Assembly (NCBI GenBank): GCA_037176885.1
Contig: JAWWNJ010000024.1
Location: 1,736,001-1,800,000 of the forward strand
Direction of reading: 5' to 3'
Length of the DNA stretch: 64,000 nt
Origin: Favolaschia claudopus
Taxonomy: Eukaryota > Basidiomycota > Agaricomycetes > Agaricales > Mycenaceae
Of this stretch, positions 16,475 through 51,259 are shown in pieces. The notes under the pieces were generated by a model. That model did not search any database and had not been told where the DNA came from. It saw only the letters and a program-made list of their open reading frames with translations. The first letter of the stretch is position 1; every line of letters begins with the position of its first letter. Position numbers and translations under genes: made by a program.

Positions 16475-17036
16475 CACACCGGAAAAAACAAAATTTTAAT
16501 ATAGTCAAAAACGCCCCTCAAATGGGCTCAATTTAGTACAACATTTGTAACGAGAGTAAAGGAAAACATTTATATTGTACCAAAAGACACTCGAAATGGT
16601 AAGAATTTAGCGTACATAATAGAGCAAAGGCAATGGAGGCCATTTAAGTGACGCCAAAAGCTGCGTGAAAAGGGAAGGATTTGGAGGCAGTTTTAGGCAG
16701 CCTCAAAGGAGACCATTGAGCCATTGCCAAAAGGCGTCCCAAATTGGCGAAATTTGGGGTCGCTTTTAGGCAAAGCACAAAGGAGCCCTTTTAGCGCGTC
16801 TGAAAGCAACCCCAAATGGTTAGCATTTGGAACGCCTTTCAGACGCTCTAAAAGGCGAGCATTTAGGAAACGCCAAAAGGCGTCCCAAATGGGCACCATT
16901 TGGCGACCGTTTTAGGTAAGCCCAAAAGTGGCACAATTGATTTTTCTAAATGTTCGTCGAAATGGAGCCCTTTTAGGCATACCCCAGGGTACACCCTGAG
17001 GTGCACCTCCGGGTAGTACCCGCGGGTGCACCTCGC
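16475..17036 (+). repeat. Left 562-bp terminal inverted repeat of the giant element
   Basis: It starts CACACCGGAAAAAACAAAAT and ends GGTGCACCTCGC. Internally it is a mosaic of short motifs in both orientations (CCAAATGG, AGCATTTGG, CTAAAAGGCG, AACGCCAAAAGGCGTCCC) spaced tens of bases apart. The inner 80 bp hold back-to-back palindromes (GAGGTGCACCTC, GGGTAGTACCC). The copy at 42621-43182 has the same length in inverted orientation and differs by scattered substitutions. It has no coding potential. Confidence 0.85.
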
Positions 17037-17870
17037 TGATTCACGGCTCAACGGAAAGGGAGGCGGGAGATAGTCAGTCATATTTTCATGAAATTTACAT
17101 CAAGATCAAAGCATTGCTACTGTAGTAAGATGTCTTCGCGATGTCGACAGAGAAGGCGAGAAATTGCACTATGGGCAACTCGTCAGTGGAGGTAACGCGC
17201 TGGAAGAAGTCAGCGCGAACATCGAAAACAGAGCGGAGACGGACCTTCGCAAAGACGTTGATGTCGATGCTGAAGGGCTGATGCAGAGAAGACTGATGAC
17301 GAGAATCCATGGGGCAGCCTTGATCGAGGACGGCGTTGTGAGTAGGTCTATACTTATCTGCTTGTCCTTAGAGTGAGAAGAGATTCCTGCTGTTGGGGTG
17401 GAGGAAAACGGCACACCTGTTGACTGATAGAGTTGCTCAACCTGTACCTTACGCTGCACTCGATAAGAATGTAGATGGACGCGGCAACTACCTGCGAGAA
17501 TCCTCGTTAGAGACCATGAGAGGACTAAACAAGAAATGTACGAAAACCCAGTTTGAAAGAGCGACGACAACAAAGATGGTGTATATCGGATGTGGACGTC
17601 GACGCGAGTAGACACGAGGCTCGCCGGGGGTGTAGGGGCGCAGACGAGGAGGCGGCGGCGAGCCTGTGATCGTGGGTCGTTGGCAACGATGCGCGGAGCT
17701 CTCGGAGAGTAGTGTACGAGGCGGACGTCGATGCATCGATAGCGGCGGGTGAGACGATGCACTTGAAGCGTGCGTTGTTATGACGATGCGCCTGTCGACG
17801 GCAGCCTTCCCCGTCCTAACTACCGCTCTTCCCATCCCACCTCCTCATCTTCTCCCCCTTCACCCACCCT
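17037..17870 (-). pseudogene. Captured gene fragments in the left arm, unassigned
   Basis: The minus strand has several coding-like stretches without a consistent joined model. One (17300-17100) reads HQPFSIDINVFAKVRLRSVFDVRADFFQRV. Another (17590-17490) includes a hydrophobic run, IYTIFVVVALSNWVFVHFLF. This DNA has no counterpart at the mirror position in the right arm, so it looks like an arm-specific insertion or captured host exons. The parent gene is not recognised. Confidence 0.35.
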
Positions 17871-17873
17871 CAC

Positions 17874-18447
17874 TCAACCAACATACGTCGCCGGACAACC
17901 CTTCACCCTCCCCGCGCCCAACCCCATTCCATCATCCTCATTCGAATACATCACCGCCCCTTCCCTACTCCTCCTCCCCTCGCGGCTCGCCTCCAACCGC
18001 GCCACGTGTTCGCGAAGCACAGTCGCTTCCGTTTCGAGGGAGGTGAGACGCCAGGCGAGCTCGGTCTGCGCTGTGTGGTTTGTGGATGTCGGGTGGGGTT
18101 TGTGTGTGGGTTTGCGGTTGAATGGGTTGGATGAGGAAGAGTGAGGAGAACGGGTGCGTAGACAGAAGAGCACCCCGCCGAGGACGACGAGCGAGGCGGC
18201 GATGCTCGCGCCGACAGAGGCGGCTATCGCTATGACAGTGGTGCTGTTGTCGCTGGAGCCGGACGCGGGGACGCCGAGGACGGTAGAAGTAGCAGTAGCT
18301 ATAAACGAGGACGCGGATGCGGTGGGTAGGTCGGATGACATGACCAGATCGGACGCAGATGCAGACGAGACAGCGGAAGGGGGGAAGGAGGAGGCGTTGA
18401 TGAAGCCGGAGCGAGTGCCGTACCCTGAAGAAGGCGCCGGGCTGCTA
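17874..18447 (-). pseudogene. Fragment of a Ser/Thr-rich single-pass membrane protein
   Basis: Reading on the minus strand from about 18447, a Ser/Ala/Thr-rich segment (SSSPAPSSGYGTRSG onward) leads into a 25-residue membrane helix (VIAIAASVGASIAASLVVLGGVLF) split here only for description. A cytoplasmic tail follows, with a short coiled-coil stretch (LAWRLTSLETEATVLREHVARLE), and ends at 17874. This is the usual layout of small basidiomycete plasma-membrane proteins of the mid2-like type. An in-frame TGA lies just upstream, so the 5' exons are missing or need an intron I cannot place. It is probably a captured 3' exon. The DNA from 18450 to 19228 holds nothing firm. Confidence 0.45.
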
Positions 18448-19228
18448 GATTGTGCGCTTCAGGAGCTTGCACGCGCCGGGGAAGGTTAAGCGGTTGAATA
18501 GTTGACACGAATAGAGGATGCCGAGCACGGGTGTCCGCGAGATTTGTGCCAGTGAAGGAAGGGGTTGGAGAGTCGTCAAGCTCTGTTTGGAGGTTAGTAT
18601 GGAGAAAGATTGAAACGAAAGCGAAGACAGGAAAGGAAGAGATGCAACGTAGAAGAGATGGAGGAGAGACGGATACAAGGGGAAAGAGGGGAGAGAAAAA
18701 GAAAAAAGGGATCGAGAATCGAAACTCACAATCCCCTAACCGTACTCTTGTACACAAACGTCTCCGCGTTCAGCCAGATCACCGTGCACCCATCCCAGCA
18801 CTCACCGCGCCAGCGACACTCTCTATCTTGGCCCATCGTCGCGAAGCTTCTTGATCGCGAGAAAATACAGCGGAACGCATATAGGAATCAGTCGAACGAG
18901 GATGTTCTTGTGCGACTGGGAAGAGGGACGAGCAGGGACGGGACAGTTGATTGTGAAGAGGGATGTGGAATTCGATCGGAGCGATGTGGTAGGAGGAGAC
19001 AAGTTGTTGTCGTCGATTGTTTGTATGCAGGACCGACACCGCCGCTTCGGTATTGGACGTGCGAGTATAGTCATAGACACGCCGACCGAGCGCGCAAGCA
19101 AACTCGCGCAGTTTTCCGCGCTTCGTGCAGGACGTCCTCAACGCCACCGGCAACATCTCGCTCGTCCTCTTCTGAATCGATCGAAACTATAGACTCGAAA
19201 ACAGTGGGGCTATCTTCGTCGTGCGACT

Positions 19229-19848
19229 ATGGCCTACAATCCCAGAAAGATGCCGAAGCGTGCCCCATCGCTAGAACGCGCCTTTCGGCGAATGTATGAA
19301 TTTTTTTCACATACGTCGGCATCGGGATTCACTTTCACAGTCGGTGCCTTGGACCCAGGCAACAGCAAAGGGCGCTCGTCAAGCACAAGCACGATCTCCC
19401 GTACTTGCGCGAAGGTGAAGGTTACATTTATTGGACTGCTCAACTGCCAGCCAAAGTCGTACACGGTCAAAAACTTCAACAAATCCAAGCTGAGCTGATC
19501 ATGAAGTGGGGGGAGAGTACCCGACTGACGGGAAGACAAGAAGACTATCGTCGGTGCGAGACCGGACGAATACAAATGTGGATTGGGGCTGTTCATGTCG
19601 AGAGGCGTCTGCTGACTGGTGAGTGTGGGCCGATTGTTCCAAAAAACATCCCGATGTTTTCAGCAGAGCGCATGATTCATCTCGAATTGGCAGCGAGAGG
19701 GTACAGGCGTGTAAGATTCGTCGACCCGTGCGGGTGCGGGCGTCGGCATCGGGAATACGTATACATGGGTTCAGGCTCATTCGCTGACATGGAGAGTGTC
19801 ATGCGGCAGTGCTTGAGGGAGGTAGGTGAACCGGATGCGCAAATGTGA
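19229..19848 (+). CDS. GIY-YIG nuclease-like protein (T5orf172 type), left-arm copy
   Basis: Three exons: ATG 19229 to about 19299 (ends CGGCGAAT before GTATGAAT), about 19353-19618, and about 19665-19848. They encode about 180 residues. Key motifs in order are EGEGYIYWTAQ (the GIY-like strand), ELIMKWGESTRLTGRQEDY (the YIG-like strand with conserved Arg), ERMIHLELAARGYRR (the catalytic Glu helix) and CGCGRRHREYVY (a Cys/His cluster typical of fungal T5orf172/MUG113-type proteins). These point to a GIY-YIG fold endonuclease or DNA-binding protein. No stop or frameshift interrupts the spliced frame. An inverted paralogue at 39690-40312 shares about 70% of residues and the same two intron positions. 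The start could lie upstream, since residues before the ATG (LRRAT in this copy, VRRAN in the other) also look similar. Confidence 0.7.
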
Positions 19849-19859
19849 GTGATATCAGG

Positions 19860-21369: not shown

Positions 21370-24300
21370 TCAATAACGTCCACGAAGATTTCCAAACCCC
21401 ACCGCACCAGCTATCAACTCAAATGATTCGTCTACCCGCAATCCTCCTCATTGCCTCAAAACTTCGGGTTGTCAGTACGAGTAGATACATTAGAAAGAAA
21501 ATCAACATACCCTAGATAAATCTAATACAACTGCACGCTCGCCTGAGAATTTGAAGCGCGCGTAGTGCCCTATCACTTTATCAGGGTCAACCTCGACAGT
21601 CGACTCAGACATCCTCGACGAGTACGTGCGAGCCGGGAAATGAGGAAACGGTAGAAAAGGATCAGGAGAGTTTGGGGGCAACGGTTCCTGAGTTTCAATG
21701 ATAAATTGCACCTGGTCTGTCGCCGGATCCAACACCTGTATCTTCACGATGCTCCCGAAGACAGTGTTGTTCCCCTCGTCTGAGAAAGAAACGAGACTGT
21801 TCCCAAGGTGTGTGCTCGCCCGGGAAAAGTGCATCCCTGCGTGATTGTGGTGTGCCTTCTCCTTTCTGTCTGAGGGCTCCGACCCCAAATCTTTGCGAGA
21901 TTCACCCCTCTTGACAACGAACATGGTATACAGGCGGAAAAACTGTCGGACGAGCTCAGGGCAATCCTTGCGAGCAAACCACCGCCTCAGATTTGCGTTG
22001 CGCATCCATGTCTTGGCGACAGTTATTTCATGTTCACCTGTTCGATGGAAACAAGCCAAGGTCGGTCAGAGGGTGTATACGTTTCGAAGAAAAAGGTTGC
22101 GACTCACCTCCAACATGGCTGTTGCTGTTGATTTTTTGCAGAATGCCAATGAGCTGTTCGGTCGGGAAGCACCACCATCCCGGAACGGGGCCCCAAAGGT
22201 GCAGAAAATCATACATGTGGAAGGCCATATGTATGGCCGTCTTCTTATGGTGATAGGAGGTATGAGGATGACATGCGTGTAGCTTTTCGACCCATGTCTT
22301 GATGAAATTCCTAAGCGTCTCAGAGCGTTCGTCGGACGAGCCGAAGCGACTGATGATAGTTGCGGCCTGAACAAGTGCCATACCATGCTCGAGAAGTTCG
22401 GGTTTCTGAGATTTGACGGCCCATAGAATCACAAGAGCAATACCAAGGTATATTGTGGCGAGTAACCGCCATTCATCCGCCTTGAGAGAACCCGCCCCTT
22501 TTTCTCCATAATTTTTGGGAACATGATTGATCCAAGCGGGTGTCGTGGTGTCGCGAATAACTTCTTGAATAAAGCGAAAGCTGACCAAGTCAATGGCTCT
22601 TTCCGGCACGATCTTGTCTGGGTCACAAAGAGGCTTCGTGAGGCGCTAGACATTGAGATGAGACCAGGAAAATTATTTCGTTCATTGGAAACTTACCCAC
22701 TCCACGAGGAGTTCAGCTAAATGAATTCTCTGAACCAGGTCGAGATAATCTCCCCTTGTACATGTTTCTGGGTCATACTCAAAATCTTTATTGATCTTCG
22801 TGGGCATACGCTGGAGCGTCGCAGGATTCCCCTTCTTCCCCTTGGACTGTACTGGTCGTTCAGGCAGCTCCAAAGGTAGGGTTTTTGGCAACTCCAGTGT
22901 CCAACAGACGAAGCGCAGGGCGGGTTTAGACTTTCCCGCGAGCATATTCGTCAGTTTTTCTTCGGTCAAGGAGTCGTCTGTAGCAGTTTTGCCGCCCGCT
23001 TTGCGATTAGAGGTACCTTGATCCTCATCAACCCCGTCGACATCCATGGCGAAGTCCTCGCCGGCGTCCACATTTTCAGACGTGGTGTCACGAAATTGAC
23101 GAACAAGAAGCTTATAAATGTCGAGAATATCTTTTTCGTTCGTTGAGTTCAATGGTTTTTCGTTCGCGTTCACTCCAGATTTAGGGATTTCAGTGTCAAG
23201 GGTGGCAAAGTCATATTCATAGGCTGGCGCGGTTTTTGTTATGTTGGCCGCATCGGCAAGATTGATCTCAAGGACTTCACGACAATAATACTGCACCCAA
23301 CGTTCATAAATGGTATGCATAGGATCCGCGATGAGTGACCGAGTCGGATCCCAGTAGGGCAGCCTCCACATTTCTGACCAGCGAAGTCCATGTTTTTCGA
23401 AAAGCTTTGCCTGCTGCCCTGTTGTATCGGCATCACGCCAGGCTTCAGCATGGCTCCGGAGCTTGTCCTTATCTCGTTTCGTCCAGTCTTCGAAATTGGT
23501 GTTGTATACAGTACTCCGACCTTGACAATTACAGCAAGTACAGTAAATGTTGGCATTGTGAGCTGCAGCTCCAGCAAGCTGGCGTGCAGCTGGTAAATCA
23601 TTGACGGCAAGGACGATGGCAAGGTCTGCGACACGACCAGTGGTAGGTTCGCTGGCAGTTGAGGAGAAGTGTATACCCCGCTCCCATCCCTGCAGGGCCG
23701 GTTCAATTATGGTCCGTATAAATGGATTCATTCCAATGAGGTGGGGTGACGCGGGCCCTGGAATTATGCAAATATACACATTCTCGGGGGCGTGGCGAAC
23801 GGAAATGAGAGGAAGATTCAGACAGTATAGGTAGAGAAGTCCAATTGAATTCGAATTCGAACGCTTTCTGCTGCCAAACGGGGGGAAGAAATCCAAGCTT
23901 ATGGCAAAAGCCAGGCGCATACGCTTCCCTGGGCGTTTGATGAAGAGTTCAATTCCATCGCGATCCTTGAACTCGCGGAGGAACTCAGCCTGAAATACAT
24001 CACCAACGAAGTCATAGTCTTTCATCTCTTCATTGAGCGCTTTATCACAGGCGTCATCAAGCATTTTCTCAGTTTCTGGATTAGAAAGAAGACGAGCGAT
24101 GTAGTCGAGGAAGCAAGGCGAAAGGAATGGCTTGATGGGGTGCAGCGCGGTTTTGCCCTCCTTCAACAATGGTGTGCCACAAACCGACCGACCCTGTTTC
24201 CCAACGATCATATTGTTGCACTGGGCAGGCCAAGTAGGATCCGAAGATGTAGAAAGGGGGGTAGGAGCATAGAGTTCATGGCATGAGGGACACGTTGCGT

Positions 24301-25214
24301 ACAATGTAGTTTTACAGTCCAGATTCATGGTAGACATAGCGTCAAAAAGGCTGGTTGGTAGTTCCTTCAGAACATGCTCCTGCAGAGCATCAAACTGAAG
24401 CGAGCCCTTTGGATTCTTTACGGGGTTCAGCGCCATGGTGGACCTGACAAGAAGTTCAGAGGAGCCGATGATGAGATTTACATGATCCGCCGGCATGTTG
24501 AGGATGCTATGACAGACTAGTGCAAGTAGGATTACAATTTGCGCTTGCTCTGAGAGGTCGCCAATGGGATTGCGAGCAAGATAGCCTGAGAAGCGTCAAC
24601 ACAAGCGGGAAAAGCAAAAGATTGCGCATACCTGAATCGTAGAAGACCGGCCCCATGTCCGGTGGAAGCGTGGCGCGTAGCCCCTTCACCAGATCGTCCA
24701 ACTTCCTCAAAGTCGCGACGACCAAAGATTTCTCGTCAGAGTCGCTGAACGGTTTTAATGATTCGGCTGCAGTTGAGGCAGCGGCCGACGCCTCGTTGCA
24801 AATCTGCAATTGAAGTTCCACTGGTCCCCCTGTCATCGCGGCCAGAACGGAGGACATGGCTGCCTCGATATCTCGCAGGATGAACTTCAGCAAGGAATCT
24901 TTTTGACCCTGCCGCCCAGGCTGTTTGACGTCGGCGCGTCGGGAAATGAGATATGACAGAACCCGCATGGTCTCCGTCATGACTTCACCTGCGTCTACAG
25001 GAGTTTCGGGGTTGGAGGCCGCGGAAGCATCGCCAACGATGACAGCGCTGGTAGTCTCTCGAACGAGGAGATTCTCAAGCTCCCGTTCGCGTTCGAGCTT
25101 GCGTCTCAGATCCTCTCTATGCACGTCTCTGAGATCGCTCCTGATTCGATGGGTTGTTTCCTCGAACGCGCAATTGCAATCGAAGTACTTTGCTTGAGGC
25201 GCCATTGCCGTCAC
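21370..25214 (-). CDS. CACTA (EnSpm/Tnp2-type) transposase
   Basis: A multi-exon gene of about 1,080 residues. The N-terminus (from MTAMAPQAKYFDC or the inner MAPQ) is Cys/His-bearing and then coiled-coil-like, rich in Arg and Glu. Exon 2 (24610-22690) holds the core. It contains an N-terminal LALVCHSILN helix, CPSCHELYAP and RSVCG zinc-like pairs, and VNDLPAARQLAG followed by IYCTCCNCQG. The diagnostic RLPYWDPTRSLIADPMHTIY follows. Later exons give DEWRLLATIYLGIALV, HMAFHMYDFLHLWGPV, the WCFPTEQLIGILQKINSNSHV block, and EITVAKTWMRNANLRRW. These are the order and motifs of fungal CACTA transposases. The last exon ends at TCA 21370-21372, with its splice uncertain. No internal stop was found in the main exons, so it may be active. 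A decayed copy of its last third lies at 36660-37264. Confidence 0.85.
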
Positions 25215-25878: not shown

Positions 25879-27234
25879 TTATTTTCCATAGATCGCCCGC
25901 GGCAATTTAAACACGATTTTCTGTATCATCCCCGCCGATACCAGATTCTGGTAAATGAATGCAACGCACCCCAAGACTACGAGGGTCTTCAGGAAGATTT
26001 CCACTTGATACCATCCTATAAGCGATGATTGAGCTCTCTTCCATACGAATATATCCTGGTATCCTTCGTCCCTGTACGTGTGCGCCGCGAAAATTGTAGG
26101 AACCCCCCCAATTTCCGCCGTCTGTGGCATTTCTTGGTTAGCTCGGGGCGACCGTCAATAAGAGCCATACATACCGTGACGGCTTTCACCCACTTCGACT
26201 TCTTAGTGTCCAGCTTCTGAATGGTTTCTCCGGAACGAGCATCGAAAACATACACAATCCCGTGGTCGCTCCCAGCGACGATCAACCGACCCTTCTCACC
26301 AAAGCACGCATCGGTCGTGTAGGGCTCACCCTCGGTCTCCGTAGGCACCTCAAATGAACGGGCCTTGGCTTCGTCTGCCAAACGGAAGAGTCCCGGACCA
26401 AAGTAGGGGTCGTTCAGGCAGAGAACCCCCTCTTTCCAGTCAACGTCGGCAGAGCTACTGCGAACTCAGTGTCAGCAGAGTTTCGCTAGTATGGACAGTG
26501 CACCTTACATATATCCACCCGCCATCCAATCCCCCTTCCATTTACCTGTGCTCCCCGACAAAGTCGCGCTTTACCGAAATTCAGAGCAGATTCAGCATGC
26601 GACGAAGTTGTGACTCACACTGGTCCGTTGTGGCCCGAACCAAAGGCCACAATATCGCGGTCACCGCTGCTATCGAACCCGGCGAACGTGATTGCTCGGG
26701 GAGCGAGGCCAGCTATTTCGTTGCTGAAAATACTAGATGCGCTCCATTTGCCGTTAACGCTATTCTTCAAAATCTTCCACGCTTGGACGATATCCGACCG
26801 ACTGCAAATACAGAGTATGTTCTTGCTGGGGTCGAAAGACAAGCCCGTAATCTCGCCTGAGGTCGTGATTTGTTTGGAGAAGGTTTCCTCAAAGCCGTCG
26901 TCTCCTCGGCGCCAACAAGCCCATGTTCCGCTCTGAGTTCCAAAGTACAACACGTCGTGCGGCTCATCGGTCTGACGTGCCCAGTGCAGGGAGCTGGTAT
27001 GGCCGCGAGTGCCAGCGCCGGCAGGACGCTTTAGCTCCTTCATGGTTTTGGTGTCAAAGAGCCGGGTACCCTGCGAGCCTGTGACGGGTCAGGGTACATC
27101 TGACCTCTTGCTTCGAAGCGCCTACCTCCCGTCGCAAGGGTTTTGCCGTCTTCCGTCACAGCGAGCACGAGGATCAAGCCTGAGTGAAGCTGCACACCGC
27201 GGTGCTTAGTGTAGGCGAAACGGGAGAATGACAT
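25879..27234 (-). CDS. WD40-repeat protein with C-terminal membrane helix
   Basis: Four or more exons start MSFSRFAYTKHRGVQLHSG at 27234. Beta-propeller strands follow: LAVTEDGKTLATGG, TRLFDTKTMKELKRP, VLYFGTQSGTWACWRR, EITGLSFDPSKNILCICSRSDIVQAWKI, DIVAFGSGHNGPV, RLIVAGSDHGIVYVFDARSGETIQKL. The last exon (26130-25879) reads TAEIGGVPTIFAAHTYRDE and DIFVWKR, then a hydrophobic segment, LKTLVVLGCVAFIYQNLV, near the C-terminus. Length is about 440 residues. WD40 propellers are protein-interaction scaffolds, and the tail suggests anchoring to a membrane. The spliced model is open, with one uncertain exon edge near 26520. It lies head-out from the transposase module on the same strand, inside the giant element. 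Confidence 0.7.
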
Positions 27235-27478
27235 TGTAGAGTGAGGGTGAAGTCAGTCGTTCAGAGATCTGGAGCAGGTAGCGCAAGGCACAAGTCTTTT
27301 GTACAGCTTTGGAACAAAGCTCGCTTGGATTCAGACAAAGAAGCTCGACAAAGCCGACCTTCCTAATTCGGACATCCTAATTAGGGCACTCAATGGTTTT
27401 TTTCAAGCGGCTCAAAACTTCAAAAACCTCAGCGACTTGATCTTCGCCTCCTTCCTCCCATATACACCCCCAGCTTTC

Positions 27479-28338
27479 ATGGCGTCCCACTTCACCACTG
27501 TCCCGACCGCACGCCCCGTCCGCCTGGCGCAGCGTCACCCTTCAATTGTGGTTCTCTCGCTTCTCCAGACCCCATTTCCACGTCCGAGCTACCCTCCGCC
27601 ACTCGCTTTCAATCGCTTCCCTCTTCGTTCTGCCAAAAAAGCTCGTTTTGCTCGGCGCGCCGAAGCCGGGCCTTCCAGCCCTCGCTCGACACCATCCCGC
27701 ACCAAGACTCCTCCTCGGGCTCCCACTCCGCCAGCGCCACCGCGTGCGCCGAGCCCTCGCGCACGCAGCCCGCCCCGTGTTCCTTCACGTCAATGCACTC
27801 CTGTCCCAGACAGCCCGTTAACGGAGCCGGAGGAGGAGGAGATGGAGTATTCGATCAACAGACCCTCGAATGCCACGATTGCGGATGTTAGGGCCGTTTT
27901 CCGCTCTACGTATCCCGACCTCGATGCACAGGCGCAGGAGTTAGAGTATGACAAATACAGGGTATGGCTTTGCTATTCGTTCAGCAGCGACTGGTCCGGA
28001 CTGATTGAATTAACAGGCAAGGCTTGCTCAACTCCTCTCAACGTACTTGGATTCCTCCCTGGCCCTCGCATTTCAGGAATCCGATGCGCTTCAGACTGTT
28101 GAGAAAGTCGTAAGCGACACTCAGGCGTGATTTCTTTTCATCTCACCGTTTTCAGATGCTGAAGGACTACCCTTGGCTTGATCGCTGTGCCAAGATGTGG
28201 CCCGTGAGCGTGTGTTTGCAGAGCACGTTGCACAACTCATCCGCGCGCACTCTCACCAAGTCTCACAAGAAGGTGCTTGCGATCGTCCAAGGGACTGCAC
28301 CACCCAAGACCAGGGCCGCAAAAACGAATACTCGATGA
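27479..28338 (+). CDS. Unassigned protein, Pro-rich N-terminus and helical C-terminus
   Basis: Three exons start MASHFTTVPTARPV. They are separated by introns with donors GTATGGCTT (after EYDKYR, near 27962) and GTAAGCGAC (near 28110). Residues 45-115 are extremely Pro/Arg/Ser-rich (PPRAPTPPAPPRAPSPRARS). The rest is helical: NATIADVRAVFRSTYPDLDAQAQELEYDKY, then ARLAQLLSTYLDSS, then MLKDYPWLDRCAKMW and a basic tail ending KTRAAKTNTR. Length is about 220 residues. I do not recognise the family. It diverges from the WD40 gene, with 244 bp between starts, so the two may share a promoter region. Confidence 0.5.
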
Positions 28339-28539
28339 ATTCGCAAGTCTGGTGCTCCGTATACGTACTCCATGTAGTAGTCTATGTACCTTACACTACA
28401 GTCTGCTAGTAATTCACTTTTATTTCTCCTGCCTTGCTTATCGAATTGAGTGAAAAGAAAGGACTTTAAAATCCATAATTTTTGTTGATTTGATATGACG
28501 CATCATTTTTCAGTGATGCGCCATCATACATTCTCTTCT

Positions 28540-29114: not shown

Positions 29115-29702
29115 ATGCCTTCGACACGCGTACAAGTAGACCCTGTAAGAGTTCCTTTCACTGTCGCTTTTCGTCTGTCTGACATAACGTGCAGGCCCCT
29201 ACCCACCCAGTCCTTCACTGTCGTGTCTACTCGACCACGCGCGATCCGCATTATACGACCACCCCGGTGAACTGCAAGCCAGACGACGATCACCATAATC
29301 CACTCGGATTGCGATTTCCTCTAGTAGAGTCGCTATATTTGGATGGACGGTCGCAGTCCTATATCCACGACGCGCATGTTGAGGTTACACACAACGGCAG
29401 GACGTACGCGTTCCAGGTTTTCTTCAAGCGCGGTGTTGCGCTTGTCCCGAATCACTACGCTCCTGACCTTGTGTCCGGTGTTGTCATTATGAAGTTGTCC
29501 CAAGTCGACAATTCGACCGTCGTCAATGCCCGTAGGTCGGCTGAAGAGCGCGATATGATGGACTTTGTGTTCGAGCAGTACGTCGGTCTACTCATTGACA
29601 ATATATTCATATCTCATTGACTACCGCAGAATCCGCCCCAAAATCGGGCATTTCCAAGCTAACAAGTATTTTACGAAGAAGCCGCTGAAATTCAACTACT
29701 AG
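29115..29702 (+). CDS. Small unassigned protein, about 170 residues
   Basis: Three exons: ATG 29115 (MPSTRVQVDP) to about 29144, then about 29195-29580, then about 29632-29702, all with GT-AG introns. The middle exon reads as a compact beta-rich domain (RVYSTTRDPHYTT, LGLRFPLVESLYLDG, DAHVEVTHNGRTYAFQVFFKRG, DLVSGVVIMKLSQVD). It ends with a conserved-looking tail, FQANKYFTKKPLKFNY. The spliced frame has no stop. No domain is recognised. It is the first of three plus-strand genes (29115, 30135, 33184) in tandem within the giant element. A TATATAA box at 28988-28994 could serve it. Confidence 0.55.
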
Positions 29703-30134: not shown

Positions 30135-32528
30135 ATGTCTGGGTACACTACCTTGTCGGACGACGACGACGACGACGGGGCTATGAGCTCAGTTGAAGAA
30201 GATATCGCCGACGAGCTGACGAGCTTCCAATCCGAGGCAGAGATCCCAATGGTTATGGAACAGCCGAACCAGGATGATACACAGCCCGCTGAGCCTCTGC
30301 CGTCGCCAGCTGTTGCGGGCCCCTCCCAGCCCTCCGGTCGACACCGAACGACGACAGACCCTGAATATCAACCTCCATCGAAGAGGCAGATGATAGCAGC
30401 ACCCTCTAAGGAGGGACCCTCTCAGCAAGCACCACCCTCTCAGCGTATGATTGATATAGTGTGTTGTTTTTTCCTCTTTGTGATGCCGGGCCTTTCAATT
30501 CGATTCACAGGCCCAGCAAGACAAGAAATATGCCGAGGGGAAATCGAAGCAACTTGCGCGCGAGAAGAGACAGATACGAGACCAGCTCAACATGGTTCTC
30601 TCCCAGATGGAGGAGATCAGGAACCATAAAGTGAGAAGCAATTGTTTGTTGAGGAGACGCTTTGACTGAAAGCCTTCCAGCAACAGATGGATCTGGAGTG
30701 GGCGACGGTGAGACAGGAGCGGGAGCGGGAGCGGGAGCAGCATGAACAGGAGAGGCAGCGGATCGAGCAGGAGAAGCGGCAGATCGAGGCGAGCAAGGTG
30801 AATGTTGTCGAGGTTATATTCGCGTAGGGACTGACACACAATTCATAGGCTGCTATGGAAGCTGAATTGCAGAGACGGCTGGCGGCAGCAGATCAGGAAA
30901 GAGCCAAGGAGAAGGTGAATCTCCATACCTTGTCGCACGAAACAAGCCGCTCATCTCATTCCTGACCCATCCCAGGCCGCATACGAGAACAGAATGGCCG
31001 CGTTCCTGGCGCCTAAACCGCCAATCGGACTGAAGCCTTCGGAGCCTCAAGTTAACTTTCCGAACGAGCCACCGCTGACGCAAAACGTGCTCTACTCGAA
31101 GGAAGAGAGAAATGAGCGGATTATAAGGCGTACGTTGGAGAACCTGAAGGAATCGCGTCCCGTCTTGTCTTTTGCGCCTACGGAGACGACATCCGCCCCA
31201 ACCCAGGGCTCGACTTCCAATGAACCGCCTCCTGTTAACCCCTTCCTCGTGACACTGGATATGAACGACCCTAACTTCGCCAAAGCATTGGCGAAGGGTC
31301 TCGAAGACAGTGGCATCAAGCGACTCTTTTTAAGGGGAAATAATAAGAAGCTCGACATCTACGAGGAAGCTGACGAGCGTCTCAAGGAGACACACACCGA
31401 AGCCGAGCGCAAGAATTGGATGGTGGGTTATATGTCGTTTAGTGACTATCCAAAAGCCTGACGTGTCCGTTCGCCACAGAGGCTGACACTTAAAATGTTT
31501 CGGGTGTACACAAATATTGATACTGCCAAGGAGTTTAAAAACTATCTTCCGGTAGAGCTGACACAGGCAGAAATCAAGGAGATTGATTCTGGCAAATTGA
31601 AGCCCAAGGATGGAGACCGATTTTACTTTGGACCGAGATATCTCTCGAGTAATTGGAATCACCACATAATCCAGCATCTCGTTGCCCGCACGCAAACAGC
31701 GCGATTGAATGACCCCAAGCGTTGGAGTGCCCCCGAAGTCCCAACAACCTGGCTCATTGGTCGTTATCGCGACATCCTCAGCCCGCGCCAGGAGCAGTGG
31801 AAGCTCTACCAACCGCGCGGTCTCGAGACAAAAGCAGAGGCTGAACTCCGAGCTATGGGAATACTGACCCAAAGACAAAATCAAGGCGTGCAAAATTCCC
31901 GCAAATTCACTGTAAGCTGTTGCTCGTCTAGCTGGGCATCTCGACTAACATCGTCGCACAGAAACTCGGGTGGAGGGTGCGAACATGCACGCGAAAAGCT
32001 GACCTTGAGCTTCGGCTGGGGCACGATGACGCTGCGAAAGTTTGGAGGTTTTTCTTGCAGGTCCTGAAATACTTGGATATTCAAGGAATGTCTTCCGAGG
32101 ATGATGCCTCCAGGCCGGTCAAGATTGGCGGTCAGACTGTGTCGGTCACCGTGCGCATCATCCGGCGGTGCATATGGCGAGCGGACCCCGTTCTCCAGTA
32201 CATGCAGTATATCGACGAGGAAATGCTAGCGGATGAGGAGGAGAAGAAGCATCATCGTACCCCTCGCTTTCGGTTAGAAGACCAGCCTGAAAGCAGGAAA
32301 CCGGCGCATGGTCTTCCGTTGTCTCTATATGACGAGCAATGGCTGGAGGACGAAAGGGCTTTCGATCCAGACGTCGAGCAAACGCTGGAGATGAGCAAAG
32401 ACACCTTGGAGCTGCTCAAGGTTTTGTCGTCGCAATTGAACCGTGGATACAATGGAAAGGGCAAGCAAAAGGCAGCTTCTTCGGGTGATGATGCTGATGA
32501 TGAGAGCGATATGGACACGCGGGGCTAG
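30135..32528 (+). CDS. Unassigned nuclear-type protein with coiled coil and acidic ends
   Basis: Seven exons join cleanly through GT-AG introns to about 590 residues. The N-terminus (MSGYTTLSDDDDDDG) is acidic and then Pro/Ser-rich. Exons 2-4 form a charged coiled coil (KSKQLAREKRQIRDQL, ERQRIEQEKRQIEASK, AELQRRLAAADQERAKEK). The central and C-terminal exons form a globular region. It includes LTLKMFRVYTNIDTAKEF, GDRFYFGPRYLSSNWNHHII, VPTTWLIGRYRDILSPRQ, KLGWRVRTCTRKADLELRLGH, VSVTVRIIRRCIWRADPVLQ. The tail is acidic (DDADDESDMDTRG). I recognise no named domain. The layout (disorder, coiled coil, globular part, acidic tail) resembles the gene at 57661-60239. The model appears intact. Confidence 0.65.
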
Positions 32529-33183: not shown

Positions 33184-36100
33184 ATGTCCGCACCTACCCA
33201 CAAGGTATAGTTTTTTCTGCGTCTCCGGAGTTAGTACCTAATACTCAGATAGACCTCTGCTTCCAATGCTTGGTATTCTATGCCACAGGACATGTATGAT
33301 ACAGCCACGGTATGTGCTTTACCATTAAGTTGTATAGCTTCAACGCTAACTCCTGCCCTCAGAAAGAATTTCCTGCTCAAACCGGTCATTATCGCGTCGG
33401 AAAGAATTTTTATACTACGTTCTTGGGCACACGCGAAATGATTTTAGACACCCCGTCCGCCAAAGCTGCTCCTTGTCCGACTCCGTGGGATCGAAACCCC
33501 GATTTCCTCACCCCCACATACATGTCCGCCCGATATCCATTTCATGCTTTCATACCAAAGCACGACCCATGGCAGGGGCCGCTACTGGGATGTCTGAGCT
33601 ACAGTTTCCGCAGTCTGCCAATTATCCAGCGAGAAGACGGAACTTGGTCCCTACACCAAGACGCTATACACCTCTGGCAGGATCTCGAGCTTTGCCTGCG
33701 CGGAGTGGGACGCGAGATGCTCTTTCTCTCCACAAACCCGTTTCCGAAAGAGGGATTTGAGTGGCTCGTTTCACACCGATTCAATTATAGTGCACACTAT
33801 AAAACCGAGAAGGGTGCGCGTCTGGCTGCTTGGCGTTCCAAGCAAAAATTCTTGCCGCTTCTGGGTCTTGTTTCCATGGGGTTTTGGTACATGATGCACG
33901 ATGAGACGGAAGACGAGAACGAAAAGTACGAGGGCGAAGAGAGGAGCGGAGCGGGCAGCAAGCGGAAAGCATCAGATATCCCTGCGTCTAGGCCCACTAA
34001 GAGAGTCAAGACCAACAAGGGGAATGCTCCACCGCAGCTCAATGTTCCTTGGCGGCAGGCCCTGGCAGAAAAGCTCAAACTTCAGCCTTCCTGGCTGGAT
34101 TTGCTTGAGGATTCAATCGCGGCTGATTTTAGAGTTCCTCGAGTTGGTGCGCTCGTAGACCTGCAACCAGCCGACTTAGATGACGCGGATCGTCCTCTTG
34201 CTTTTTCAAAATCGGACACCGGTCTGGAGTGGCTTATTCCGAGCATTTTACGCAAGACCTCTCCGATCCCCCTCTATTTCTCGTGGGGTCCTCTTCACCG
34301 CTCTGTTAATTTTGCCGTTCCCGAATACCTGAGCCGCCTTGGGCTGGTCCCAGCCCCAGACCAGATCCAATATCTGAAAGAAGCGCAAATCGCTTTCACC
34401 CCGTTCGAGTACAACGTACCCAGCAGAGCATTCCTCCCCAAACGCAAATCATCTGCTTCACGATCAGGGGTCCTTCCCCAATCCGACCTTCCTTCCACCT
34501 CCGTTTCGCGCAAAGACACTGGTGCGAGCCAACTCGCTGCGCCCTCGCCCAAATCCTTGCCGACGCGCACCAGCGCTGGCCCCAATACGCCCTCAACGTC
34601 CAGTCACGCTGGCCCCAACATGCCCTCCACGCATAGTACAGATGCTGCTCCTCCATCGTCTCTCGACAATTTTCCTCCTGTTCATCGCAACAGCGGGCAG
34701 AGACACCAAGAACTCATGGAAGATTTCTTTCAGCGGCGGGAACGAGAGAATTCTCGTAAATCGGCGACTGAGAATCCAGCTGACAAGACTGCTCGCATGC
34801 AGCGCGAACAGAATGCCCAGCGGGGACAAGCACCCGGGAAAAAGGGTGCATGCGTGTTCGTTTGGGAAAAGGAGGATAACAGTGTTTTCTATATCCGGCG
34901 TCCTGGAGGCCGCAAGAGTTACGAAGATTTATTCGAAACATATGGCGCTTCGCAGCGCCGATACGATAGTTTTCGTGATGAATGGGATCTATGCTCTGCT
35001 TTTGGAGACGACCGTGGCGTCGACGACGACGTTGGTGGCGACCAGTATGGAGACTACGATGACGACGAAATGGACGAGTATGAACGCGGTTTCCAAACCG
35101 CTGTCGGCGCTCCTCTGAGCCAGAAAGCAGAACCCTTGCCTTTGGCAGAGGTTGGGCCAGCGTCTGAGCGAAACCTCCAGCGGATTTATCTCCATTTTGG
35201 ACCATCAAAGGCGGACGAAGAGGGTCAAGTTGACCCTCCAAGGTATCGAGCTATCGCAGAGGATTTGACTACCTCGCTACTCAAGCGATTTGGGTTCATG
35301 ATGGGCGAGAGCCTCTCGAATCCTGCTCGTACACCGGAGGCTTCAATTGTGGCGAGCTTGGTCGGGATGGAGGATATCGATGCCCAGTTCGCAGGTGTTA
35401 TGGCGACATTCTTTGGACAGTTCCTGGAGGCGAAGAGTATAGCCGGCATTGATTCGACTATCTTCGACTTTCATCAACGTCGGGGCCCTCTTTTCCAGGA
35501 CAGAGCTGTCGTGGTACGTCGCGAGACCCTCACCAATGTCGCTGAAGAGACTTCCGCCGTGTACTACACTCTCTCTGATCACGGCAGCGGATATGGTAGC
35601 CAGGTCTTACTCCTGCAGAAAGCCGCAGATGTTCTCGAAGTCCTTCGACAGGGTTGGGGTCCCCGAGTGAAGGATGTCGCTGGAGAGCTTCTGTCGCGCG
35701 GGATGCCTTTCCGGCTCGCAGTGAAAGACTCAGCCGATCTCGTGCGCCAGCGTGCCAAGGTGATCCCTGGATATTGCCGGGTCAATGTAGATTCGGGGCT
35801 AGGTTTTCGCCCCCAGCACTATGAACCTAATATCCACGATTATCATGCGTATCTTTCTCGTCTCAACTCCGAGTTACTCCATACTCGGCGGGGCCATGTA
35901 GCTCCGCTTTATGGCGGGGTCATTGGGCGAATAGCACGAGAGGAGGTCTGCGACGAACATGTCCTCCAAGGTCCAAGCGATGACGTCTACGACGACGGGG
36001 CATGCCTGTGGGACGGCCAATCAGACCATGCGTACTGGTACGAAACCTTGAGCGAGCATGAGATAGATGTTATTTGTGGTGTTTACTACGTGGCGACGGG

Positions 36101-36440
36101 TATGTGGCCTGTGCTTCTTTTCTCTCTTTCGCATTCTCACCGAGTTAATCTAGGCAAAAAGTTAGAGGCCGGCGAAGAACAGACAAAGCTCCTTTCGTGG
36201 TGGCCAAAACCCAACGCATGGCAGAAAGGTAACCTGGACCCTGGCTGGTGGTCGCCCGCATGCGAGGGCTGGTATCAAAAGAGGCGCCTTCGTCTGGGAG
36301 ACGCCAACAGATACGGTGAGAAAGGCATGCTAGCGCGCCCCAACGAGTGGAAACACAACCTTCGCTTTGTCAAGACCCTCAAGGATATCGTGCAGGCTCA
36401 CGAACGAATCTCATCTCTGGTCCTCGACGAACTATTGTAA
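33184..36440 (+). CDS. Large unassigned protein, about 1,030 residues
   Basis: The start ATG at 33184 (MSAPTHK) is joined by a short exon (DMYDTAT) to the long exon from 33362. One later intron (about 36099-36154) splits YVATG from KKLEAG. The N-terminal third is globular: GHYRVGKNFYTTFLGTREM, YPFHAFIPKHDPWQGPLLG, FEWLVSHRFNYSAH, PSWLDLLEDSIAADFRVPRVG. A long disordered Ser/Pro-rich linker and a charged helix (RHQELMEDFFQRRERENSRK) follow. The C-terminal half is globular, including GFMMGESLSNPA, GMEDIDAQFAGVMATFFGQF and WWPKPNAWQKGNLDPGWWSP. Long proteins of this layout occur widely in Agaricomycetes as hypothetical proteins. I know no function. The frame is fully open, so the gene is probably expressed. 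It is the largest cargo gene of the giant element. Confidence 0.7.
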
Positions 36441-36659: not shown

Positions 36660-37264
36660 AACCTTGGAAATATCCAGCTCATCCTCCAAGTACTTCCTCT
36701 CTATCACTGCCTTCTACCAATTGAGCAAAATCGCACGAGGATCGAGGGTAAAAGATCTCTCACCACGAAACTGCAATGCACAAAGAGAAAGCACACTACA
36801 ATTATGCGGGAAGGCGGCTCTCGCGAGCATCGACGCACCTCGGGAACAGCCTTGTTTCATTCCTAGACCCGAGCGGAAATGCTACGTTTGGCAGCATCGA
36901 GAGGATAGAGGTTGTCGACTCGGAAATAGACAAAGTTCAGCTCATCATCCGACCTCAAGAGCCGCTGCCCTCTGGCGTTGAAGATGTTTCCAAACTCTTC
37001 CCGCAGCTTGCTGTTTGCATGTACTCCTCGAAGATGGCTGACTTCACCCTCATCGTTGACCCAAGTCAAATAATTGGATACTACAGCCGTTTTATTCTCT
37101 CAGGCGACCGTGTGGCCATAATGGATTTATCCCGGGTATGCTGTTACTCTTCTACTATCATCCTTATACTCATTTTCTACAGGATTGAGTCCATATCCCG
37201 AGGAAGGAGCAGGCGGGTCATCAAGGAGCTGATTTCGTTCTGTCGCAACTTCAATCTCGTGTAA
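36660..37264 (+). pseudogene. Remnant of the CACTA transposase C-terminal region, right arm
   Basis: Spliced at about 37134/37182, this reads EKAHYNYAGRRLSRASTHLG, NSLVSFLDPSGNATFGSI, VQLIIRPQEPLP, YSSKMADFTLIVDPSQIIGY and ILSGDRVAIMDLSR. These match, block for block, the end of the full transposase (KEKAHHNHAGMHFSRASTHL, VQFIIETQEPLP, VEVDPDKVIGHYARFKFSG). Upstream (36660-36775) similarity continues weakly but out of frame. Everything 5' of this is missing. It lies in the mirror position and orientation to the real gene's 3' end. Confidence 0.75.
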
Positions 37265-38780: not shown

Positions 38781-39680
38781 CATTTGCTTCACATTGATAC
38801 ATTTTGATCCCCATTTCCTTCAAGTAGCCGCGCATGATGCTCTTCATGTTGGCGAGAGATCCTGCTTTCACATATACATACTATTGGTGCCGATGCCCGT
38901 CAGAATGCGGTCACTCGTTGGGAAGTTTTTGGACTCGCTCATACCGAGGTTTGCTTTCCTTTGTGATCTACCTACCCACCCTCACTGCAATCCTTCTACA
39001 GAACTCGCATACTTAGCTCGTATGATAGCCAGAAGTAGTGCCCCCGTCTTCTCCACGATTTGTCTGACCCTCCTCCCCAATAAGGTCAGCACAGCCACCG
39101 CCGACATTCTTCCAGCTCGTTCTCAATCTCCCTTAGAGTTGATCTCAAGCCACTCCAGGAGGAGTTGAATAAGTGCTGTGGAAGTCCCCTCCCTCGCTGC
39201 CTTGAAGTTCAATCAATTTTTGGCGGTGCGGGTACCTTGCGAGCGCAGGTGACCTTTGTCCTCCCAAGCAATTTTCTTGTATTGACAATGAGATATTGGC
39301 AGCGCCATATTGGCACCGACGCACCGAAAGTACAAGATCCTACCGTTATCGGCGGGAATTGAGGATAGGTGGGTTTGAGTATTATGACTTGAAATGCGCT
39401 CGCTCATTGAGAACCCACGTCATGTAGGGGAATTTAGGTCTATACATCACGTTTTGGCACCGGAAATGCAATACCAAGAGTATATCCCTCATTGAACAAC
39501 ACCCGACGCCCATGTACAGAATTCAATTTACCTATATACATTCGACCTGAAACCAGGTCATCCCAAAGCTTCTAGCTATCCGACAACAACATCATCTTCG
39601 AGCATACGCGGCCCCTCGTCGGCGGGGGCGCAAAGTTTTGCTACAGAAATGCTTGAATTCGCTGTGACACCGGAATCTTC
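37930..39680. repeat. Tandem duplication in the right arm, about 0.9-kb period
   Basis: Several landmarks recur about 900 bp apart. AATGCGG-CACTC (near 38008 and 38909) is one, and GGAGGAGTTGAATAAGTGCTGTGG (near 38256 and 39159, shown split) is another. GGTGCGGGTACCTTGCGAGC (38320s and 39222) and CTCGTCGGCGG (38721 and 39616) repeat likewise. A second, broken copy of the GIY-YIG 3' end (38770-38905) is included. This explains why the right arm is about 1 kb longer than the left arm here. Confidence 0.65.
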
Positions 39681-39689
39681 ACGATTCAC

Positions 39690-40312
39690 TCACATTTGTG
39701 CGTCCGGTTCACCCGCCTCCCTCAGGCATCCGCGCATAATGCTCTCCATGTCTGCGAGAGATCCGCGGCCCAGGTACACGTACTCGCGATGCCGATGCCC
39801 GCATCCGCAAGGGTTCACGAATATTACCCGCCTATACCCTCTGGTCGACAACTCGAGATGAATAAGCCGTTCTGTACCAATATATCGTCACTTCACATTC
39901 GCGGCACCCTGAAGACACACTCACCAACCAGCAAACGTCTCCCAAGGTGAACGGCTTCGATCCACATCTGCACCCGTCCCGCCTCACACTTATGGTAGTC
40001 TTCCTGTCTTCCCGTCAGCCGGGAAGTCTCACCCCACTTCACTATGAGCTCAGCCTCGATCTCGTTCCGTCGTTGACCCTGTACGACGTCGCCCGGTAGT
40101 TGCGCCGTCAAATAAATGTAACCTTCACCTTCCCGCAAATACGGGAGGTTGTCTTTGTGTTCAATCAGTGCCTGTTTCTGCTCCGAAGGCGGAAGCCGAC
40201 GACTGCGCACATAAATTCGTGGTCGAAGGACATGAATTAAAATTTACATTTGTCGAAAGGCACGCTCTTGCGACGGCGTACGCTTCGAGCCGTTTTTCGA
40301 GCGACGCGCCAT
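39690..40312 (-). CDS. GIY-YIG nuclease-like protein (T5orf172 type), right-arm copy
   Basis: Three exons give about 175 residues: 40312-40251 (starts MARRSKNGSKRTPSQERAF), about 40204-39930 and about 39870-39690. Motifs are EGEGYIYLTAQ, ELIVKWGETSRLTGRQEDY, ERLIHLELSTRGYRRV and CGCGHRHREYVYLG, ending EPDAQM as in the left copy. The introns (GTAAATTTT...GCGCAG and GTGAGTGTG...GTACAG) match the left copy in position and phase. The fold is that of GIY-YIG nucleases. Whether it cuts DNA is unknown, although the YIY core, the Arg and the helix Glu are all present. Upstream coding-like sequence (40860-40474, minus) could be an extra 5' exon, since SEAALKPTLSMYWAEQVLKR reads naturally. Confidence 0.7.
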
Positions 40313-41247
40313 ATTTGCACGGCGGACGATGTGTACAACGCTAGGTGCACGGGCTTCGCAATACCGACGGTGGAGATGTCGGTGAGATCGGGATGATACC
40401 CTGTTTGTGGTTTCGGACTTGCTGTATTCCGGAGGACGTTTGTACGATGCCGCTGAATTCGGTTCGTGGAGGTCTATGCAGCGTGGGCGCCTCCGCCTCC
40501 AATGCCGTGGCGACGGTGTGCGGTGATGTGATAAAGCATCCGCCGACACCGGCTTTGTCTCCTACCACTACATCGATCGTGATCATAGTCGTTGGACCTC
40601 TTAAGCACTTGCTCGGCCCAATACATCGATAACGTGGGCTTGAGTGCGGCCTCTGAAGTGTCGGAAGAACTTGCGAGGGGTGTAGAAGGATTCGGAGCGT
40701 GCAAGGGGCATGACCGGGCGGAAGGCAAGTCCGATCCTGACTTCAGCATCCCGTTCGATATTCCATGAGGCGGATGTCGACCCATCGCCATCTTTGTCAG
40801 TGCTCGAATTAGCGACTCAGCTTTCCACGCTGCCGTCGCGGCGTTGAGATCGCACAAATATGAATCGGACCCCTTCCACGAGCATCACAACAAGAAGTCG
40901 TTCAGGCTGGACTCACCGCCAAACGATTCCTCCTCGCCTCCTGCGTTTCAGTTAGAACCGCCTGATTCTACGTGAACTTGTGCATCGACGCCTGACTCGC
41001 AAACGAGTCTATCTCTATCCTCTCCGACGACATACATCATTGCGCTCTATGCTATCAAGATCCAGCCGTAACGAAACACAGCGTCAACACCCTCGTAACG
41101 GACCTCTAAACACCAACACGATGCCGCCGCCTTCATCCACATCAGTCCTCGCGATGTTACCAAAACAGACGCCCCCGCTGCCTCGCATCGATAGTCTTTT
41201 ACTCGATACACCCACCGCATACCGCTTCGAAACCTTTCATTCCACTG
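40313..41247. other. Region upstream of the right GIY-YIG gene
   Basis: A minus-strand coding-like stretch at 40857-40474 may be a 5' exon or a scrap. The rest (to 41247) has only overlapping short frames with no clear preference. Confidence 0.35.
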
Positions 41248-41303
41248 GCGCAGTGAGCGCCACCGCCTCTCAACAGCGCAGTGAGCGCCACCGCCTCTCA
41301 ACA
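41248..41303 (+). repeat. Perfect 28-bp tandem duplication
   Basis: The unit GCGCAGTGAGCGCCACCGCC... (28 bp) occurs at 41248-41275 and again at 41276-41303 without change. It is a recent duplication inside captured DNA of the right arm. Confidence 0.85.
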
Positions 41304-42300
41304 GCTCCTCTGCTTTTCGTCTCTAAATGCTCCATCTCTCAACCCGCCGTCGAAACAGGACATTTGCGCGTACTCCGACCCCACATTTCTCTCAAAGGCT
41401 GCAAAAGTACTTCGCAGCTCTACGCGCTCCTGCCGCTACGACTCCGCCCTCTCCCACTTCCAAATCGAAGGCATCCGCAATACCGTCAGGCGATCGCACA
41501 TGGACTTCAACGCGCCCCCGACAAAACAACTTCGTCTTCGCGCTGGCCACCTTGTATGACTCCCATGTGCTGTACATTCTACGCACATCTCCTACCTCGC
41601 TTCCCGGTGCTAAGATCAGGAGTCCACCACCGATCCAGCATGTCGTTTATCAGGCGTGTGTCCTTTATTCTCATGTTCAAGCTTAATACTAACACAGCGC
41701 AGGTCAAGAAAGCACCGTCTCTCCTCTTCTGTCTCCCCGACAACCCCTTCTTCATCCCGATATAGTGCCGGGAAGCCACGATGTGCAAGAGGCGACGTAT
41801 GCCTGCGCGTCTCCTTCTCCTTCTCCTCCACCTTCCCTAACCTTACACACAGATTCGTCAACCGCTTCGGCCTCGCCCACGGCAACGTCCTCTCCGAATT
41901 CGACCCCGACATCGTTCACGCCGAGGACTTCAACGACAGCAAGCGTGACTTCCGTGAGGTCAGCATCCCCTCTCCTCTCCTTCCTTCCGTTCCTTCCCAA
42001 CTAACCAACACCCTCAACCTTGCAGCAACCCTCGCCCGTGAATCCGTCGCCAACACCATCCTCGCCTACTCCGAGCTCATCCCCTCCCTTGCGTCAACTT
42101 CGCCGTCTCGCACCATCCGTCGCCGCCTCTTTCCTTTCAAACTCGCCGACGCTGCAAACGCCGTCTTACCAGCGCTTGACCGCTGCGGCGTCGCCCGCTC
42201 TCTTCGTCCCCGCGCTGTTGCGTTGACAGGACATATCACCCTCCCGCGAGCGGGACTTCAGGTGAGTTTTTCTTCTTATCTTTTTGTCTTCTTTTAACGT
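41304..42300 (+). pseudogene. Captured gene fragments in the right arm, unassigned
   Basis: Coding-like plus-strand pieces include PSKQDICAYSDPTFLSKAAK (41345-41410), RFVNRFGLAHGNVLSEFDPD and AEDFNDSKRDFRE (41850-41960). After an intron-like gap ending CTTGCAG at 42024, the sequence reads ATLARESVANTILAYSELIP and FPFKLADAANAVLPALDRCG (to 42270). They read like adjacent exons of one host gene in the same orientation, but joins are not in a single clean frame. The left arm has no counterpart. The parent family is not recognised. Confidence 0.4.
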
Positions 42301-42620
42301 GTTTCTTACAAGTTTCGGCTGACGGCAGGCAAGTACCCGCCCCGACGTGTAGAGCAGCGGGTTCCCCGACGCTTGCGCTGTTGCTGCTGTCGCTGTCCCG
42401 CCGCGCAGCGGCGCACTCAGGTTGACACCTGGGATGCGGATCCGTTGAGGAGGGTGGCGCCGAGTAAACACGATTAGCTAGACCAGGTAAGTTCTTCCCA
42501 CTCATTTACTCGTTCTCCTTATTAATTAGATGGCAATGCTCATAGTATCAGTGTCTTCATAGCGACGTAGCTTCTCTAAGAATATAACTACCTTCCGCCT
42601 TGAAAATGAGCTGTGAGTTG
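42301..42620. other. Inner flank of the right terminal repeat
   Basis: GC-rich at first (CGCCGCGCAGCGGCGC near 42400 is nearly palindromic), then AT-rich. No gene is supported. Confidence 0.35.
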
Positions 42621-43182
42621 GCGAGGTGCACCCGCGGGTAGTACCCCGAGGTGCACCTTAGGGTGTACCCTGGGGTATGCCTAAAAGGGCTCCATTTAGA
42701 CAAACATTTAGAAAAATAAAATGGGCCACTTTTAGGCTTACCTAAAACGGGAACCAAATGGTCCCCATTTGGGACGCCTTTTGGCGTTTCCTAAATGCTG
42801 GCCTTTTAGAGCGTCTGAAAGGCGTTCCAAATGCTAAGCATTTGGGGTTGCTTTCAGACGCGCTAAAAGGCCTCCTTTGTGCTTTGCCTCAAAGCGACCC
42901 CAAATTTCGCCAATTTGGGACGCCTTTTGGGACTGGCTCAATGGCCTCCTTTGTGGCTGTCTAAAACTACCTCTAAATCCTCCCCTCTTCACGCAGCTTT
43001 TGGCGTCCCTTAAATGGCCTCCATTGCCTTTGCTCTTTTATGTATGCCAAATCCTTACCATTTCGGGTGTCTTTTGGTACAAAACAAATGTTTTCCTTTA
43101 CTGATATTACAAATGTTATACTAAATTGAGCCCATTTGAGGGGCGTTTTTGACTATATTAAAATTTTGTTTTTTCCGGTGTG
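42621..43182 (-). repeat. Right 562-bp terminal inverted repeat of the giant element
   Basis: On the minus strand it starts CACACCGGAAAAAACAAAAT at 43182 and ends GGTGCACCTCGC at 42621, exactly the length of the left copy. Differences are scattered substitutions, so the two have aged separately or were not recently homogenised. ACT follows at 43183-43185. Confidence 0.85.
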
Positions 43183-51255: not shown

Positions 51256-51259
51256 ACAT

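Follow-up and report, generated by a model that had tools for sequence, protein, structure and literature searches.

Evidence for a giant EnSpm/CACTA-type DNA transposon with its own gene set and GIY-YIG-like genes in its arms in the mushroom Favolaschia claudopus

The stretch of DNA analyzed here, referred to as the window, comprises 64,000 bp of the genome of Favolaschia claudopus (Mycenaceae), the assembly of which measures 264.6 Mb in 460 contigs. It corresponds to positions 1736001-1800000 of contig C24 (C-numbers denote contigs and also name the element carried on each). Within the window lies an element of 26,708 bp (16475-43182), a complete unit bounded by inverted repeats and having the features of an EnSpm/CACTA DNA transposon. 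Its terminal inverted repeats, at 16475-17050 on the plus strand and 42607-43182 on the minus strand, are 576 bp in length with 92.5% identity between the arms; a preliminary description of the sequence had placed their outer ends at these same positions and had given a length, 562 bp, that proved slightly short. The left repeat starts with CACACCGG and contains many hexamers of the AAATGG type, at a density of 12.1 per kb compared to 0.67 per kb in the core. The trinucleotide ACT, already pointed out in that description, was read on both flanks as the left (16472-16474) and right (43183-43185) copies of the target duplication. GC content is approximately 40-46% outside the element (window 1-6000 and 46001-58000) and 49-56% within it.

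The Tnp2 transposase that had been described inside the element was identified as a gene at 21505-25205 on the minus strand, for which four exons are predicted with GT..AG junctions (three of them seen). Its Tnp2 domain (PF02992; 22685-24595, minus strand) scored 37.6 bits against a cutoff of 28.6 (E 1.8e-9). There were 25 matches to transposase homologs, the named ones being from Mycena, Tetrapyrgos and Agrocybe, with the homolog of Mycena venus falling just under the PF02992 cutoff at 27.9 bits. Across 25 aligned homologs, D411 and D508 are invariant and C527 and C530 nearly so, giving two D residues and a C(2)C motif. The exons are open in four of the five aligned copies. A paralogous copy of the 3' end of the transposase was recognized in the right arm (36752-37261, plus strand) by comparison of translations, and at the DNA level it weakly matches the corresponding region in C89 and C16.

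Inside the terminal repeats, duplicated arms of approximately 2-3 kb (from 19.3-21.3 kb on the left and 37.4-40.2 kb on the right) constitute a further set of inverted repeats. The nuclease-like gene of the GIY-YIG (T5orf172) type on the left, at 19229-19845 on the plus strand, probably consists of two exons and its frame scored 21.8 bits (cutoff 20), while its relative on the right (39693-40312, minus strand) is split in two and contains a single in-frame stop, which represents either an intron or decay. Other genes of the core are a WD40-like gene (25900-27234, extent approximate, minus strand, first ATG at 27234), a conserved 145-aa frame of unassigned function (29183-29617, plus strand) that is open in all five aligned copies, and two plus-strand genes to which no family was assigned, namely gene 2 (30919-32525, several exons) and gene 3 (33300-36437, ~1000 aa). 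Five relatives of gene 3 were found, from Favolaschia and Mycena, and in one protein model of Mycena haematopus (P0030) a gene 2 relative is fused with a gene 3 relative.

Using the left repeat as a query against the genome, paired ends were found at six loci, identifying the elements C24 (26,708 bp, duplication ACT), C89 (37,689 bp, TCA), C16 (27,942 bp, CAA), C12 (27,453 bp, GCT), C170 (19,108 bp, ACA) and C10 (28,674 bp, CGT). The terminus CACACCGG is common to all six of these close copies, and in each the 3-bp duplication is identical at both ends and has its own trinucleotide; with a diverged element on C47 included, matching duplications occur in all seven two-ended elements. Chance is excluded because five further loci have both ends and each of the six copies has its own matching trinucleotide. 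Copies with the same ends and different 3-bp duplications, for which the preliminary description had advised looking, are represented by the six paired copies and, with diverged ends, by C47. Repeats occurring alone, which it had named as evidence to the contrary, did not turn up at full length, this search having given full-length repeats as pairs only. Over 18.8-19.7 kb of the core, C24 could be aligned with C89, C16, C12 and C10, and pairwise identities among these five are 94-97%; C170 is without much of the core. Transposase DNA is present in all seven elements, as judged from seven strong genome matches, further weak matches (two inside elements and 16 outside, of up to 179 bp) having been set aside before counting.

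The flanks of each element, joined after removal of one copy of the duplication, were also searched in the genome, with the best 40 of 66 candidates being scored. Among the matches scored, related sequence runs continuously across the junction for six of the seven elements, with identities of 94-96% for C16 (five loci), 92-94% for C12 (four loci, and a fifth at 83%), 89-92% for C10 (three loci), 85% for C170 (two loci) and 81-94% for C89 (several partial loci). Base-level alignment was conducted with one locus per element for six elements. The relative of the C16 site is identical in 120 of 120 bases, and those of C12 and C89 have one intact copy of the trinucleotide. Each of the seven joined flanks, taken at 800 bases, contains a frame of 119-266 codons that spans the junction (lengths without a shuffle control), the longest being those of C16, C47, C89 and C12. 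The insertions of C89 and C12 sit close to the start of putative genes, which we take to be of the F-box type.

The copies moved as whole units between the 576-bp repeats, leaving a 3-bp duplication. With full-length repeats paired, 3-bp duplications present and related sites reading as joined flanks, the original proposal of one mobile CACTA-like unit was upheld. It is very likely that the C24 element represents a giant DNA transposon of the EnSpm/CACTA type in complete form, one that probably is autonomous or was so until recently, moving by a mechanism in which a DDE transposase of the CMCT/RAG1-like type would bind the AAATGG-rich repeats, excise the element and paste it in elsewhere. The core genes would most likely help a unit of this size to move, or control its movement.

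The C47 element (1057628-1125282; 67,655 bp with inserts), which has TGA on both flanks, represents a second family. Its repeats are 65-66% like those of C24 and its terminus is CACACCG; an insert interrupts the right repeat, and ~17.7 kb separates two parts of gene 2. The order of repeat, GIY-YIG gene, gene 3, gene 2, WD40 and transposase is that of the close copies. Synonymous divergence (dS) from C47 ranged from 0.5 to 2.2 for gene 3, gene 2, the 145-aa frame, the GIY-YIG gene and the transposase (gene 3, 0.49-0.94; transposase, 1.6-2.2) compared to only 0.07 for one WD40 frame. In a sliding comparison of C24 with C47, identity was 93-98% for 26.0-27.0 kb, as against 67% for 29.0-29.5 kb. 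Because the dS and identity of the WD40 part are so uneven relative to the rest of the core, these comparisons suggest that modules were exchanged between the two families. Across window 26000-28500 the WD40 segment is 89-98% identical to C47, with neighboring parts being far more different. Small near-palindromic elements with similar ends were also found, with at least 75 matches over ~180-390 bp among the best 40 of 48 candidates (e.g., C183:333490-333880 and C211:176587-176976). Two of these palindromes were resolved to the single base, and both terminate in CACACCG..CGGTGTG, the duplications being AGT and ACT. Such elements are probably moved in trans by the transposase of the C24 element or a related one.

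GIY-YIG matches occur in both arms of each of the six close elements, and in five of these both matches total more than 170 aa. The right match of C16 is a remnant of 36 aa and the left copy of C10 is interrupted by ~2 kb; in C47 the left match extends over 171 aa with 73% identity and the right side has arm-like DNA. The zones between repeat and GIY-YIG gene differ among the six copies, with the exceptions of the left zones of C16 and C12, which are alike at 99.3%, and of C10 left and C170 right, which have 509 bp in common at 96%. The contents of the elements are of two sorts, their own core genes and broken host pieces that vary by copy between the repeat and the nuclease gene. In C24, the left zone (17051-19228) contains patches at 17283-17552 and 17719-18411 with 68-77% DNA identity to sequence at several other loci, and the right zone (40313-42606) contains a disrupted fragment of a glutamate dehydrogenase-like gene (40959-42194; Pfam 28 bits, cutoff 27; 64-83% to other loci), which is traceable also in the right zone of C16. 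The left zone of C10 holds a piece of an AMP-binding gene, presumably an acetyl-CoA synthetase, that is 85-86% identical to three loci. More distant loci match this piece in separate exon-like parts, and it appears to keep its introns, which would imply capture at the DNA level. A WD40-repeat gene piece, which we take to be of coronin, is found in the left zones of C16 and C12, and the three loci that resemble its source show identities of 86-87% and 81-85%. There are also Tc1-like frames in the left zone of C170 (DDE_3 under cutoff) and a nested Ty3/Gypsy element with a chromodomain in that of C89 (element positions 5295-10466; 1400 of 1724 residues scanned). Each of the three captured genes has three top source-like loci of similar divergence (C106, C7, C8; C34, C63, C68; C36, C109, C81) plus weaker ones, which may mean that the assembly contains several gene sets, either haplotype-like or duplicated. 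Approximately 210 bp of the C24 right zone (42212-42428) match neighboring, tandem-like copies at many loci.

It would appear that fragments of host genes accumulate in these end zones through capture as DNA, which likely happens when a break is repaired wrongly from an unrelated template; the fragments would later decay. A larger role for the paired GIY-YIG genes can be envisaged, whereby they form the capture machinery, cutting near the arms or within host genes so that repair from a host template rewrites the end zones. On that view we would be dealing with an autonomous DDE transposon equipped for gene capture at both ends, and core modules may be exchanged between families likewise. We consider this version unlikely.

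For the core of the giant transposon itself, strong matches in genome DNA searches were confined to the seven elements, with the WD40 region found at seven places and gene 3 at six, and every one of the 24 pieces matched by the GIY-YIG arm lies within them. Ratios of nonsynonymous to synonymous divergence (dN/dS, omega) were computed against the C47 copies, giving 0.21 and 0.16 for gene 3, 0.27 (exon 1) and 0.09 (223 codons of exon 2) for pieces of the transposase, 0.18 for the left GIY-YIG gene, 0.21 for the 145-aa frame and 0.08 for the WD40 frame at 26618-27088, for which opposite-strand frames (0.64 and 1.5) provide an internal contrast. These values point to purifying selection on most of the pieces tested. 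A 283-aa frame is probably not a gene, because its omega was 0.55. Judged from these sequence comparisons, the WD40-like gene, the 145-aa frame, genes 2 and 3 and the two GIY-YIG genes all belong, as core genes, to the element itself, and the term cargo, used for them in the preliminary description, does not fit contents that are mostly the element's own gene set and whose host-derived parts are broken fragments. The same observations bear on the possibility that a short CACTA element took up host gene space by composite or macro-transposition, the core genes then being chromosomal cargo. While this would agree with the broken host-gene pieces inside the repeats and with a majority of genes that are not classic transposition genes, it is quite improbable given that strong core-gene matches are restricted to the elements, that the C47 family has the same gene order despite its diverged repeats, and that the left-repeat search of the genome found no inner repeat copy, save for an inverted portion of the repeat's own sequence.

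A Starship-like element mobilized by a tyrosine recombinase, with only incidental CACTA features, would match in its large size and many genes (Starships of Tremella are given as 42-606 kb in the passages cited; PMC13066641). However, the symmetric repeats and 3-bp duplications of all seven elements and their conserved DDE transposase make it a very remote prospect, and a tyrosine recombinase was not found by Pfam in 32 element frame pieces of the window, a subset of its frames. Equally far-fetched is the multiplication of relics by segmental duplication, to which the mere seven copies and some broken genes might be attributed, but not the perfect and differing duplications of the six close copies, the related uninterrupted sites or the finding that, in the search with joined flanks, every element had its separate group of matching loci.

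A number of observations weigh against the C24 element being a complete giant EnSpm/CACTA transposon that moves as proposed. Neither excision nor a fresh insertion was observed. The relatives of the insertion sites are paralogous loci standing in for true empty alleles, not element-free strains; such loci read, for six of the seven elements, like the joined flanks expected of an empty site, but three of the six alignments are imperfect at or beside the trinucleotide, with one mismatch within it for C10, a 3-base gap within it for C170 and, for C24, gaps before and mismatches after an intact trinucleotide. Among the matches scored, relatives of the C24 site reached just 73-77% (three loci), and for C47 none was found among the best 40 of 66 candidates. 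The pairing of repeats is marred by one decayed single end on C15, a partnerless end-like relic of 494 bp at 77%. Exon 3 of the transposase is broken by a 4-base gap in C10, gene 3 is open in four of the five aligned copies and frameshifted in C16, gene 2 of C16 carries an indel, and several GIY-YIG copies contain stops that may reflect introns or decay. The nuclease gene previously ascribed to each arm holds for the left one, the right being weaker and partly broken, with a piece (18.1 bits) under the Pfam cutoff. Every Pfam match of the WD40-like gene is also under the curated cut-offs. With regard to selection, a second WD40 frame had an omega of 0.25 for 100 codons, yet 1.6 for 49, that of gene 2 was 0.32-0.51 with dS saturated, and the matched C47 stretches of gene 3 and GIY-YIG hold one to two stops (two in GIY-YIG), possibly introns. 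RAG1 chains occupied Foldseek ranks 1-43 for the predicted fold of the Mycena venus homolog (pLDDT 65.6), at low TM-scores. The genome DNA searches skip very common words and miss relatives under roughly 65% identity, and the accessory functions and the capture route are ones that we infer.

Large gene-rich mobile units of fungi are usually discussed as tyrosine-recombinase Starships. The present family indicates that a mushroom DDE transposon could remain mobile at 19-38 kb with private genes, most of the tested ones under selection. Genes of such elements can pass for host genes, as with gene 3, which is an ordinary hypothetical protein in NCBI. With seven copies available in one assembly, some of whose end zones are shared and others not, it becomes possible to test in which order genes were captured and what the paired nucleases do.

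EnSpm/CACTA elements have repeated short motifs near their ends, and those of plants also have a TnpA-like partner protein. The 5'-CAC..GTG-3' termini, 3-bp duplication, Tnp2-type transposase and short motifs near the ends were all found in the C24 element, which by its termini, duplication and Pfam domain is a member of this superfamily, with RAG1 as the best structural match in the modeled fold. No recognizable relative of the TnpA-like partner was seen in Pfam scans, in which genes 2 and 3 match no family. Fungal EnSpm elements of the CMCT clade are described, in the passages cited here, as having 5'-CAC..GTG-3' ends, 3-bp duplications, the C(2)C motif and possibly an extra TET/JBP gene (Kojima 2025, PMC12730594). 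The C24 family shares these ends, duplications and motif and adds the WD40-like and unassigned genes, a GIY-YIG gene per arm and a size of 19-38 kb; no TET/JBP gene was seen among the C24 element frames scanned. The Plavaka termini given in the same source (TGT..ACA or CATCA..TGATG) differ from those of the C24 family (CACAC..GTGTG). Two Kyakuja families described there have 7-bp duplications and lack inverted repeats, and giant KDZ elements of ~30 kb with accessory genes are reported in algae (PMC12477816); the C24 family, with 3-bp duplications and 576-bp repeats, falls outside the KDZ (Kyakuja) definition.

Pack-CACTA/Pack-TYPE elements of plants are presented as non-autonomous, with pieces of host genes between inverted repeats (PMC8903248). 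Host pieces also lie between the repeats in the C24 family, but here the transposase is aboard and the recognized pieces are confined to the two end zones. Starships, defined by a tyrosine-recombinase captain and 42-606 kb in size in the basidiomycete Tremella (PMC13066641), are likewise large gene-rich fungal units, in contrast to which the C24 family has a DDE transposase and long symmetric repeats. No report of a giant EnSpm element in mushrooms, or of one with GIY-YIG genes in both arms, was found in searches of one open-access library, and an entry in Repbase or a subscription source may exist. Among the closest counterparts are giant EnSpm elements with accessory genes, of 16-20 kb in a red alga and up to 15.2 kb with nested insertions in Ectocarpus (PMC6431247, PMC12477816). 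These are of the same superfamily, enlarged and with several frames, and come from another kingdom; the passages cited mention no GIY-YIG arms. The preliminary description had regarded the locus as a mobile unit of a kind not known to be described, which, within the library searched, holds for a CACTA-like unit of this sort in mushrooms but not for giant EnSpm or KDZ elements at large. The fungal variant is new, and giant EnSpm as a kind was already known from algae.

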